Shown here: positions 37,271-40,608 of the stretch, piece after piece
Position numbering within the stretch: the first letter of the stretch is position 1
Layout: each line of letters begins with the position of its first letter
Origin: a virus
Reading direction: 5' to 3' (one strand)
Virus record (IMG/VR): IMGVR_UViG_3300042373_000168
Location: 1-51,150 of that record
Length of the DNA: 51,150 nucleotides
Position numbers and translations under genes: made by a program
The notes under the pieces: model-generated
What the model was told of the DNA's origin: nothing
The model's input: the letters and a program-made list of their open reading frames with translations, nothing else
The model's database searches: none

Positions 37271-37434
37271 AGCTATTTGAAGTGGAGTTAAAGCGCACGT
37301 CCTACGTAGTTATCCGGATTGAAGCGGGGAATAAAGAGCAAGCCGAGGAGCTTGCGTGGGCTGAGCTTGCATCAGACGGGTCATACGGCGAGAGCTATGC
37401 TGACTGGGAACTTGAATCAATCGAGGAGACCTAA
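37267..37434 (+). CDS. Small acidic protein
   Basis: 55 residues: MKLFEVELKRTSYVVIRIEA then GNKEQAEELAWAELASDGSY and an acidic end. A beta strand pair followed by a helix is predicted by eye. It overlaps the upstream gene by ATGA and ends in the sequence GGAGACCTAA, which supplies the Shine-Dalgarno of the next gene. No known function. Confidence 0.65.
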   Translation: MKLFEVELKRTSYVVIRIEAGNKEQAEELAWAELASDGSYGESYADWELESIEET

Positions 37435-37443
37435 CAATGTTAG
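37431..37443. repeat. 13-bp palindrome, exact copy 6 (start codon cassette)
   Basis: GGAGAC-CTAACAATGTTAG: Shine-Dalgarno, then the palindrome whose ATG (37437) starts the next gene. Confidence 0.9.
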
Positions 37444-37790
37444 TTTGGAAAGAGGTGTACGGATGGAACGACTGGGCATGGGAGCCGCGCATAACCAATG
37501 AGACCAGCACATCACTAAACTTTGTTGTGGCTTACCGGCAGAGTACTGAGAACGACGTGGCTGAGTGCACACATGAGGATAACGTGCCGGATAACTACGA
37601 CATCCACTACCCACTCTATTGGCGCGTGGTCTACATAGCCCAACCGCAGCCCGACGACTTCTTCTTAATAATGGAGTACGACGAGCAGGAACTACGTGAG
37701 ATGCTGGAGATGAAGGTCAAGGTGCTTGGGCTTGAGGAGCTAGGCATCGAACGACTGAGAAGTATGGACGCCTTAAAAAGGGAGACCTAA
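37437..37790 (+). CDS. Acidic protein starting inside a palindrome, unknown function
   Basis: 117 residues. ATG 37437 is the centre of a 13-bp palindrome, with GGAG upstream. Trp/Tyr-rich first half (MLVWKEVYGWNDWAWEPRIT, then HYPLYWRVVYIAQPQPDDFF) and an acidic helix at the end (DEQELREMLEMKVKVLGLEE). No family is recognised. It ends with the next GGAGACCTAA cassette. Confidence 0.65.
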   Translation: MLVWKEVYGWNDWAWEPRITNETSTSLNFVVAYRQSTENDVAECTHEDNVPDNYDIHYPLYWRVVYIAQPQPDDFFLIMEYDEQELREMLEMKVKVLGLEELGIERLRSMDALKRET

Positions 37791-37799
37791 CAATGTTAG
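37787..37799. repeat. 13-bp palindrome, exact copy 7 (start codon cassette)
   Basis: GGAGAC-CTAACAATGTTAG again; ATG at 37793 starts the next gene. Confidence 0.9.
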
Positions 37800-38038
37800 A
37801 ACACAGACCGAGAACCAAACATGCCGTAACCAAGGACGGCTACAAGATCAGACGTGCGGCGTACAGCGCGGCGGCGGAGCATAGCCACAAGCTTCAATGC
37901 AGCCTGTTCGGCAAGAAGTACGAGCCAGTGCCGGAGATACGCAAGCGGCTGGATGCGCACTTAACTACGCACACAGTAAACAAAATGAAACACGAGATAG
38001 ACGAGCTAAACAAAGAGGAGAAGGAGGGTGGCGCATGA
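37793..38038 (+). CDS. Basic protein starting inside a palindrome
   Basis: 81 residues: MLEHRPRTKHAVTKDGYKIR, then RAAYSAAAEHSHKLQCSLFG, KKYEPVPEIRKRLDAHLTTH and an acidic end. Rich in Lys, Arg and His. The ATG lies in the palindrome, 8-9 nt after GGAG. It ends in an ATGA overlap with the next gene. A nucleic-acid-binding role is possible but not shown. Confidence 0.65.
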   Translation: MLEHRPRTKHAVTKDGYKIRRAAYSAAAEHSHKLQCSLFGKKYEPVPEIRKRLDAHLTTHTVNKMKHEIDELNKEEKEGGA

Positions 38039-38280
38039 CCGACGAGGACGAGGCCAGAGTGCGGAAGATCATAGACCGCGAGGTGCAAGCACTGATGCTG
38101 AAGGTGGAGTTCGAGCATGACGAGTCTGATATGTCGTTCGCTGGGGATATGCACTGGCACTACCCAAGAGCATACAAGCGCATCAGCGACGAGGTGTTGG
38201 CTAAGTACAACCTAACCCGGAAGCGGCGAGACGAGCTGATACAACAGAGAGAGGGTGGAAAATGGACATGGACGATGTGA
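38035..38280 (+). CDS. Small acidic/basic helical protein
   Basis: 81 residues: MTDEDEARVRKIIDREVQAL, MLKVEFEHDESDMSFAGDMH, then YPRAYKRISDEVLAKYNLTR and a basic end. The ATG follows GGAGGGTGGCGC and overlaps the previous stop. No recognised family. The last 19 bp overlap the start of a very small membrane peptide. Confidence 0.6.
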   Translation: MTDEDEARVRKIIDREVQALMLKVEFEHDESDMSFAGDMHWHYPRAYKRISDEVLAKYNLTRKRRDELIQQREGGKWTWTM

Positions 38281-38345
38281 CAGGGATCATCTGCGGTGTC
38301 ACGCTGGTGGTGGTATTGGTACTTACTTATTTGGAGGTGGTATGA
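38262..38345 (+). CDS. 27-residue membrane peptide
   Basis: MDMDDVTGIICGVTLVVVLV then LTYLEVV: one hydrophobic span after four acidic residues. GAGGG lies upstream of the ATG. It overlaps both neighbours (ATGA with the next gene), so translation is coupled. It is short, but the clean coupling supports a real gene. Confidence 0.55.
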   Translation: MDMDDVTGIICGVTLVVVLVLTYLEVV

Positions 38346-38563
38346 GCGACATAACATTGTTAGGTGCATTGGCTGCGGGGCTAGGGATGTATTGCCTGTA
38401 CTTGCAGATACGCGTGAAGATGCTAAACGACGCGGGGAAGTTCATGACCGAGCTACTTATCAAAACGGTGCAGGAGCATACCAACAAGTCCGAGCGTGAG
38501 GCGGCAGAAGAAGTACGGCGCATGACAATAGCCCATGCTAAACAATACGTAGCAAAACATTAA
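38342..38563 (+). CDS. Small membrane protein
   Basis: 73 residues. An N-terminal membrane segment (LLGALAAGLGMYCLYLQIRV) is followed by a charged helix (DAGKFMTELLIKTVQEHTNK, then SEREAAEEVRRMTIAHAKQY). A near-copy of the 13-bp palindrome lies in codons 4-8. The start overlaps the preceding peptide gene. Similar N-in single-span proteins occur in early phage operons; the role is unknown. Confidence 0.6.
   Translation: MSDITLLGALAAGLGMYCLYLQIRVKMLNDAGKFMTELLIKTVQEHTNKSEREAAEEVRRMTIAHAKQYVAKH
38351..38363. repeat. 13-bp palindrome, one mismatch (copy in membrane gene)
   Basis: ATAACATTGTTAG: the first base differs; read as Ile-Thr-Leu-Leu in the gene. Confidence 0.7.
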
Positions 38564-39137: not shown

Positions 39138-39162
39138 CTTAACTAGTATTTTGTGTTATACT
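39134..39162 (+). promoter_or_regulatory. Second sigma70 promoter with the same upstream module
   Basis: -35 TTGACT (39134-39139), 17-nt spacer, -10 TATACT (39157-39162), extended TGT. GTGCGCAC (39,109-39,116) and CCCCGCCA (39,121-39,128) precede it as at the promoter at 36,554. The NinX stop codon TGA is part of the -35. The next gene starts at 39182. Confidence 0.85.
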
Positions 39163-39181
39163 ATGTATAAATGGAGGAAGT

Positions 39182-39445
39182 ATGACTAATGACGAGGCCG
39201 ATACGTTCATGCAGCAGTGCATGGCGTTGGACGACGCGATGAACGAAATGATGGAGGGTCAGGACTTAACCGTGTGCATCGCTGTCCTAACAAAGTTAGT
39301 CGGTGAGGTTATATACGACGTGCAAGACGGCCAGACCAGCAAGGAAGAAGCCACGGACTTGATACGCAAGGCCATGACATCCATCACTATGGCGTACGAG
39401 GTGTGCCGTGGCGTGGGTTCCGACGATGGAGAATTCCTTCACTAA
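39182..39445 (+). CDS. Small acidic helical protein
   Basis: 87 residues: MTNDEADTFMQQCMALDDAM, then VCIAVLTKLVGEVIYDVQDG and KEEATDLIRKAMTSITMAYE. Probably a helical bundle. It is the first gene after the second promoter, with GGAGG 4 nt before the ATG. A one-mismatch copy of the 13-bp palindrome is in the coding sequence. Unknown function. Confidence 0.65.
   Translation: MTNDEADTFMQQCMALDDAMNEMMEGQDLTVCIAVLTKLVGEVIYDVQDGQTSKEEATDLIRKAMTSITMAYEVCRGVGSDDGEFLH
39287..39299. repeat. 13-bp palindrome, one mismatch
   Basis: CTAACAAAGTTAG; read as Leu-Thr-Lys-Leu in the gene. Confidence 0.65.
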
Positions 39446-39524
39446 ACGAAGGCTTATATGTAGCAAAGCAGTAGCAGTGTAGTTAATGTATCACCAACAT
39501 CTTTATTAAATGAGGAGCAATGTA

Positions 39525-40589
39525 ATGTCAGAGATCAACTTTGGTAAGACAGTCACGCTGGCACAAGCTGCCAACATCATCACGCGCACACCGATGAACC
39601 GCTACCTGCTTGAAGGTGAGCCCGGCATCGGCAAGTCAACACTTATCCAAGCAATCGCAGCCAAGCTGCCCACACATGAGGTGGCGTACATCGACGTGCC
39701 GAACATGGACTTGGGCGACATCGCCATGCCTGTCATTGACCACGAGACCCGCACCACTAAGTACTACCCGAATGCCCGCTTCAAGTTCCAGACCGGCAAG
39801 CCAGTCATCGTGATGCTCGACGAGTACACCAAGGGTGCGCAGCCAGTTAAGAACATGCTACATCCACTGCTTGAGGTTACTAACCCACGACTAGGCGACA
39901 TGCCCATCCACCCTGACTCTATTATCTTTTTGACAGGTAATCTCAGCACGGACGGCGTAGGCGACCAGCTACCAGCACACAGCCGCAACCGCATCATCCC
40001 ATTACAAGTGCGCAAGCCAGACGCTGACGAGTGGATCAGTTGGGCTATCGACAACGAGGTATCAGCAGAGGTCATTGCTTGGGCTAAGGCATACCCACAT
40101 GCGTTCGCGTCGTACACCGACGGCGGTCAGGCTGAGAACCCGTACGTCTTCAACCCACGCAAGCAACAGAAGGGCTTCGTCTCAGGCCGTTCGCTGGAAC
40201 GTGTATCTAACATTGTTAGGATTCGCAAAGAATTGGATAGCGACACACTGATCGCAGCCATGAGCGGTGCGGTGGGCGAGGCGGCAGCGCGTGACATCCA
40301 AGCGTATATCGACTTCGCAGACCAGCTACCTACGTGGGAGCAGACAATCAAACAGCCGATGACGGCACCCATCCCTAACTCTGCGGGTGCTTGCGCAATC
40401 ATTGTGTACGGCGCTATCGCTAAGGTGGATAAGACAACCATCGCGCCATTCATGGAGTACCTGTCCCGCTTCGACCCAGAGTGGCAAGCCGTGTTCGCTA
40501 TCAACATCGCACGTAGTAACAAGCAGAGCGTGGCGTTCAGCGCGAAGGCATTCAGCGACTGGGTGAGTCGTAACGAGGACTTGCTGTAA
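39525..40589 (+). CDS. MoxR-type AAA+ ATPase
   Basis: 354 residues from ATG 39525 (GAGGAG upstream). Walker A GEPGIGKST (31-39), Walker B VIVMLDE (94-100), sensor 1 in FLTGNLS (Asn139) and arginine finger AHSRNRI (154-156) are all intact, so it should hydrolyse ATP as a ring. MoxR proteins work with VWA-domain partners as chaperones that insert cofactors or remodel complexes. Such a partner is encoded just downstream, after a 68-residue gene. A 13-bp palindrome lies in the coding sequence (Ser-Asn-Ile-Val-Arg). Confidence 0.88.
   Translation: MSEINFGKTVTLAQAANIITRTPMNRYLLEGEPGIGKSTLIQAIAAKLPTHEVAYIDVPNMDLGDIAMPVIDHETRTTKYYPNARFKFQTGKPVIVMLDEYTKGAQPVKNMLHPLLEVTNPRLGDMPIHPDSIIFLTGNLSTDGVGDQLPAHSRNRIIPLQVRKPDADEWISWAIDNEVSAEVIAWAKAYPHAFASYTDGGQAENPYVFNPRKQQKGFVSGRSLERVSNIVRIRKELDSDTLIAAMSGAVGEAAARDIQAYIDFADQLPTWEQTIKQPMTAPIPNSAGACAIIVYGAIAKVDKTTIAPFMEYLSRFDPEWQAVFAINIARSNKQSVAFSAKAFSDWVSRNEDLL
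40207..40219. repeat. 13-bp palindrome, exact copy 8 (inside AAA+ gene)
   Basis: Coding copy, central base T on the plus strand; read in the frame TCT AAC ATT GTT AGG. Confidence 0.9.
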
Positions 40590-40595
40590 GGGAGA

Positions 40596-40608
40596 CTAAC
40601 AATGTTAG
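40596..40608. repeat. 13-bp palindrome, exact copy 9 (start codon cassette)
   Basis: GGAGA-CTAACAATGTTAG; ATG at 40602 starts the next gene. Confidence 0.9.

Follow-up and report, generated by a model that had tools for sequence, protein, structure and literature searches.

One short palindrome forms an array in a phage of an uncultured aquatic family, represented by a virus contig of 51,150 bases (IMG/VR record IMGVR_UViG_3300042373_000168; hereafter the window) whose right end lies inside polA: about 17 copies, about 600 bp apart, are spread over the early genes and restricted to these. Our reading is that the copies are operators for a phage protein of the ribbon-helix-helix (RHH) type and that, when bound, they would act as roadblocks that shut off immediate-early transcription; to this reading, taken as a whole, we would give a probability of about 55%. 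Counted by its exact core TAACANTGTTA, the 13-letter symmetrical site CTAACA-N-TGTTAG (CTAACNNNGTTAG) is present in 15 copies, all within 34900-49264, two of which have one outer base changed; two core variants and one decayed copy come in addition. No copy was found in the left 34.9 kb of the window. This left part encodes the virion proteins and the terminase on the minus strand, and the right part holds the early block, directed rightward, with genes for a MoxR-like ATPase, a VWA/metallopeptidase protein, a DUF3310 protein and an Hjc-like protein. With up to two mismatches allowed on both strands, the window contains 35 matches to the site against 1.3 expected, a number reached in none of 100 shuffles, and a reversed control pattern gave no match.

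The array is not peculiar to this contig. A search seeded with the MoxR-like ATPase gave 80 loci, and the palindrome is present in 76 of them, usually in 8-22 copies each. Together with the loci of a second search, seeded with the RHH protein and overlapping in part with the first, about 1,500 sites were counted across loci of related aquatic phages. In the relatives read at full length the array covers the first early block, from the point of divergence from the terminase to just before polA. In G009, a genome of 66.7 kb whose first 25 bases recur near its end, the array takes up 24.6-34.8 kb, with 19 sites, none of them outside the interval between TerL and polA. The edge of the main array falls at the Hjc-like gene, which carries a site in the window and in five others (G001, G002, G009, G011 and G022). 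Within the arrays the copies are spaced more evenly than at random (coefficient of variation 0.55 vs 0.90), with a median distance of 610 bp. Terminase relatives of the window include phage DSL-LC04, 023Pt_psg01 and Pelagibacter phage HTVC027P (L183-L185); in the regions of these that were read, no such palindrome recurs.

Inside genes, the copies tend to occupy fixed codon positions. One position in the MoxR gene is common to 64 of the 77 site-bearing loci (in the window, site 10 at 40207-40219; sites are numbered from the left) and another to 44. Comparable positions are found in the VWA gene (58 of 70 loci; the window gene holds site 12, 41757-41769), in family F1 (53 of 73) and in family F4 (60 of 64), the last in ORF 42456-43316, which contains sites 13 (42796-42808) and 14 (43212-43224). 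The commoner MoxR position reads TCT AAC ATT GTT AGG (S N I V R) in the window and in L005, L006, L009, L024, L065, L072 and L084. In site-less relatives, and in phages L027 and L036, which have a 14-bp version of the site, the same or similar residues are spelled with other codons. The use of frames 0 and 1 alone by intragenic sites turned out to be trivial, because the third frame contains TAA.

The spacing and the outer bases of the palindrome change in concert within genomes. The outer base is A in L028 and L031-L034 and G in L030; the half-sites are spaced to give a 14-bp version, CTAACAWWTGTTAG, in L025, L027 and L036 and a 15-bp version in L043. Genomes are nearly pure in spacing: 1440 of 1461, 44 of 47 and 6 of 7 sites are of the majority spacing type of their locus, and mixed spacing was seen in L014, L017, L018, L025 and L101. 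Among the 836 full sites of 67 main-class loci, each inner change occurs 0-5 times, while the outer bases vary symmetrically on both sides: C1>A 70 times and G13>T 68, C1>G 9 and G13>C 11, G13>A 13 (mostly from shared positions) and C1>T 0. The central base is found in either orientation (485 A, 335 T), so that there is no asymmetric orientation with transcription. As far as sequence comparison can tell, this pattern points to a symmetrical site in DNA more than to a hairpin in RNA.

Where promoters are present within the arrays, the sites prefer the leader. For 32 of 63 non-redundant sigma-70-like promoters the nearest site lies at +20 to +80, and a site over the core promoter was seen in one. 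Counting any site in that interval, 33 promoters have one, against 5.6 expected from shifted arrays; the site is upstream of the ATG in 29 of 33 leaders, and its orientation is again mixed (18 A : 14 T). In the window, a strong sigma-70 promoter match on the plus strand (TTGACT-17-TATAAT, 36554-36582) feeds the array region and has site 4 (36612-36624) in its leader, at about +28 from the predicted start. The first copy, site 1 (34900-34912), lies upstream of the first early gene, where it falls within the spacer of a weak promoter-like match (TTGATA-16-TATTTT, 34894-34921).

The best candidate for a protein that would bind the array is a small one, of 68 amino acids, encoded at 48324-48530 on the plus strand. 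It has an N-terminal arm of the form GRGxGKxP or GRGKGxKP and a strand-like stretch followed by two helices, placed by the structure model at residues 26-35 and 39-54. The Pfam family BrnA, of RHH type, matches 7 of 21 relatives, one of them (L045) above the cut-off, and does not match the window member. The gene is present in all 27 array-bearing contigs of at least 30 kb from the MoxR-seeded search and in none of the 5 such contigs without an array; the site-less locus L069 has a diverged copy without the arm. In the RHH-seeded search, most loci contain arrays, including ones with shifted motifs, and the array-free loci are mostly short or have little DNA upstream of the RHH gene. RHH repressors such as BrnA and the Arc and Mnt proteins of P22 are small strand-helix-helix proteins that bind symmetrical operators. 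The known phage repressors of this type act at one or two operators, and BrnA belongs to a toxin-antitoxin pair, whereas here there are about 17 dispersed sites and the neighbouring gene is DUF3310. The latter follows the RHH gene in the window and in the relatives read, none of which has a BrnT toxin gene beside the RHH gene.

The mechanism that we propose takes the array, its limits, the fixed positions, the DNA-type constraint, the leader preference and the concerted change, as the sequences present them, and joins them by steps that we infer: RHH binding, a transcription block and its timing. Each copy would be bound by a dimeric phage protein, most likely the RHH protein, whose gene lies near the far end of the first block. 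Whether placed at about +50 from a host sigma-70 promoter, at the start of a gene or within one, an occupied copy would be a roadblock in the path of RNA polymerase during elongation. As the RHH protein builds up, immediate-early transcription would be turned off, while the late genes would remain open, as would the replication genes, most of which lie past the array. Where a site coincides with a start codon, the ATG within it would simply have been taken as the start. Directly after polA in G009 (37018-37629; L187:17018-17629) there is a gene for a sigma-70 region 4 protein, possibly a phage sigma factor for later genes, and its presence is consistent with a later transcription switch.

Several observations weigh against this reading. 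The RHH assignment is based on a predicted helix-helix topology, a sequence motif and weak Pfam matches; the monomer model gave no structural match with Foldseek, and a sequence search of the PDB gave none either. The association between the RHH gene and the array derives from few events, as the site-less phages are one nested clade and a distant outgroup, and family F10 is likewise present in array-bearing loci and lost in site-less ones. In L043, with its 15-bp sites, no RHH gene is found before the contig end, and no RHH residue that cleanly tracks the spacing was found. One or two sites lie past the main array in G001, G002 and G022. Finally, a site at +20 to +80 also occurs with 6 of 24 antisense promoter matches and 4 of 22 decoys, so part of the leader enrichment may reflect the freedom of intergenic DNA from coding constraint.

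Of the other explanations, the one that survives best, though we consider it doubtful, is an architectural or marking array, in which the RHH protein or another one organises, bridges or protects the DNA, or has a part in segregating or replicating it, and hardly affects transcription directly. The even spacing, the presence of about one site per conserved gene and the copies deep inside genes would suit such a role, and RHH proteins are known as centromere binders. However, the sites are concentrated in leaders and almost never on core promoters, they are restricted to one transcription block, and no ParA-type ATPase of family AAA_31 was found in 12 records.

Somewhat less probable still is that the operator and roadblock logic holds and the binder is another phage protein, for instance F10 or an unrecognised factor. 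F10 is the first early gene of the window (35023-35589, plus strand, 188 amino acids) and lies between its first two sites, site 2 (35615-35627) following directly after it; its distribution, as mentioned above, resembles that of the RHH gene. But F10 is predicted to be all-helical, without family or structure match, and it is missing in array-bearing G009, which has the RHH gene; as a general binder we have rejected it on the latter ground. The F10 gene is duplicated in L009, L010, L013, L016 and L047-L049. A minus-strand gene at 35766-36122 is also RHH-like, with sub-threshold matches to DUF6364 and RHH_1; it holds site 3 (35956-35968), next to a near-repeat some 20 bp long (two times TCGGGGTCGCTCGGTGG). 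It too was discarded as a general binder, with just two partial relatives found. Structure searches gave nothing usable.

It is improbable that a host regulator or nucleoid protein binds the sites and is exploited or evaded by the phage, since spacing and outer bases shift in concert per phage genome, few sites are found in the remainder of each genome, and the sites are lost jointly with phage genes in sister phages. The least credible proposal is an mRNA hairpin, CUAAC-loop-GUUAG, through which an RNA-binding protein would control translation at start codons: several copies are on start codons or leaders and the arms are able to pair, but the fold is weak (-1.1 kcal/mol for the 13-mer, and not the best fold in 2/3 native contexts), outer mismatches are tolerated symmetrically, outer A and outer T occur together once against 4.9 times expected, the opposite of base-pair covariation, no G-U-producing variant exists in the main-class loci, orientation is indifferent and most copies are internal to genes; on covariation, wobble, orientation and energy we have rejected it.

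The palindrome was first noticed at start codons. The preliminary description reported cassettes of a Shine-Dalgarno sequence, the palindrome and a start codon, and suggested that the site would either be bound by a DNA-binding protein acting as a roadblock or work as an RNA hairpin in translation. The cassettes are exactly where it placed them: CTAACAATGTTAG at 37431 (site 6, 37431-37443), 37787 (site 7, 37787-37799) and 40596 (site 11, 40596-40608) is preceded each time by GGAGA(C), and its ATG opens ORFs 37437-37790, 37793-38038 and 40602-40808. The decayed fourth version (CTAACAATGGTAA) is indeed found at 48490-48502, where it belongs to the 3′ part of the RHH gene; the DUF3310 ORF starts with the ATG of this copy, at 48496. 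A further combination, which had been missed, is site 5 (37019-37031), with a Shine-Dalgarno sequence and an ATG (37025) that opens an ORF of 81 amino acids; another ATG with its own Shine-Dalgarno sequence follows 19 nt downstream. Such use of the palindrome recurs in relatives and concerns a minority of copies: among distinct copies with an ATG on the coding strand, 91 of 480 look like a Shine-Dalgarno sequence, a start and an ORF, against 2 of 287 for the other strand. As most copies in the window are intragenic or intergenic, the palindrome is not a start-codon feature, and the cassette as a unit had to be abandoned. The preliminary description had also held that palindrome-free starts in related phages would speak against it, and this is partly what was found: in the window and L006 the gene that follows MoxR has its start at the palindrome, but in L069, L070 and L080 it starts without one, so the palindrome is not required for initiation. 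Since these three have lost the whole array, their palindrome-free start leaves the reading as a DNA site untouched. The hairpin half of the original suggestion is not supported by the evidence given above, and the roadblock half gains from the dimer-type symmetry, the strict core, the conservation in some 75 related loci, the leader preference downstream of promoters, the candidate RHH binder and positions compatible with a roadblock. The start-codon overlaps would be by-products; the nucleotide-level constraint on coding sequence is strong and relevant for annotation.

The nearest precedent is provided by the stoperators of Cluster A mycobacteriophages such as L5 and Bxb1, 20-30 repressor sites spread genome-wide and mostly not promoter-associated, at which the bound repressor blocks elongation; their consensus shifts between related phages with repressor relatedness, they are asymmetric and oriented with transcription, and the repressor that binds them is a monomer of two domains, the phages themselves being temperate and equipped with integrase or parABS (PMC6550527, PMC9283540). 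The present array shares with them the many dispersed copies of one short site in early genes. In contrast, its sites are palindromic, orientation-free and limited to a single early block, an RHH protein is the candidate for binding them, and neither integrase nor resolvase nor ParA was found; membership among stoperators fails on asymmetry, orientation and lysogeny. Phage_integrase was not found in 17 records, Resolvase not in the 12 records searched for AAA_31, and no close relative of the MoxR protein in bacterial genomes was among the matches listed. An operator of a prophage or plasmid-prophage was rejected for these reasons, and the window phage is apparently virulent, without sign of lysogeny. 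Looser parallels are the KorB operators of plasmid RK2, about a dozen palindrome copies, some far from promoters, for global repression of the replicon by a ParB-type CTP clamp that works with KorA (PMC11790492), and the sites of MrpR (YopR), master repressor of the temperate phage SPbeta, which has a tyrosine-recombinase fold and binds one short motif of 15 bp repeated across the phage genome at about 10 promoter-region sites (PMC10516654). The array resembles the latter (SPBRE) in the repetition of one short motif; it differs from KorB in site sequence, in its 68-residue RHH candidate and in that no ParA-type ATPase was found here. No published description of the array was found in the literature searched, which left out most subscription papers.

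If our reading is true, these phages, an uncultured aquatic family found in many metagenome contigs, would represent a second, apparently independent invention of a stoperator-like system, one that uses a different protein fold and symmetrical sites and shows no sign of lysogeny. Because spacing and outer bases switch genome-wide, these phages would then offer a natural experiment on how a regulator changes specificity jointly with its dispersed sites, about 10-25 in number and in many cases inside conserved coding sequence. We may also speculate, with little confidence, that the immediate-early off switch of these virulent phages doubles as homotypic superinfection exclusion, the 13-, 14- and 15-bp spacing classes and the outer-base classes C, A and G being separate immunity types without lysogeny.

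The remaining copies of the window are site 8 (38351-38363, ATAACATTGTTAG), with an exact core and one outer base changed; site 9 (39287-39299), the core variant CTAACAAAGTTAG; site 15 (44521-44533), the core variant CTAACTTTGTTAG within ORF 44113-45090; site 16 (46110-46122, CTAACATTGTTAT), whose core is exact and which lies close to the beginning of ORF 46073-46978; and the last site (49252-49264), in the 3′ part of the Hjc-like gene. In L154, L157 and L161 a few CTGACANNTGTCAG palindromes stand beside the usual sites and may be a second site class. Between early genes of L043 (7146-7535) there is a tandem repeat in reading frames, with NLTIQ about nine times. The MoxR-like ATPase and the VWA/metallopeptidase protein form a gene pair in the window (39510-41983), and distant relatives of the ATPase (about 25% identity) are found in isolate phages of 70-78 kb, e.g. 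LUZ7, KPP21 and VBP47.

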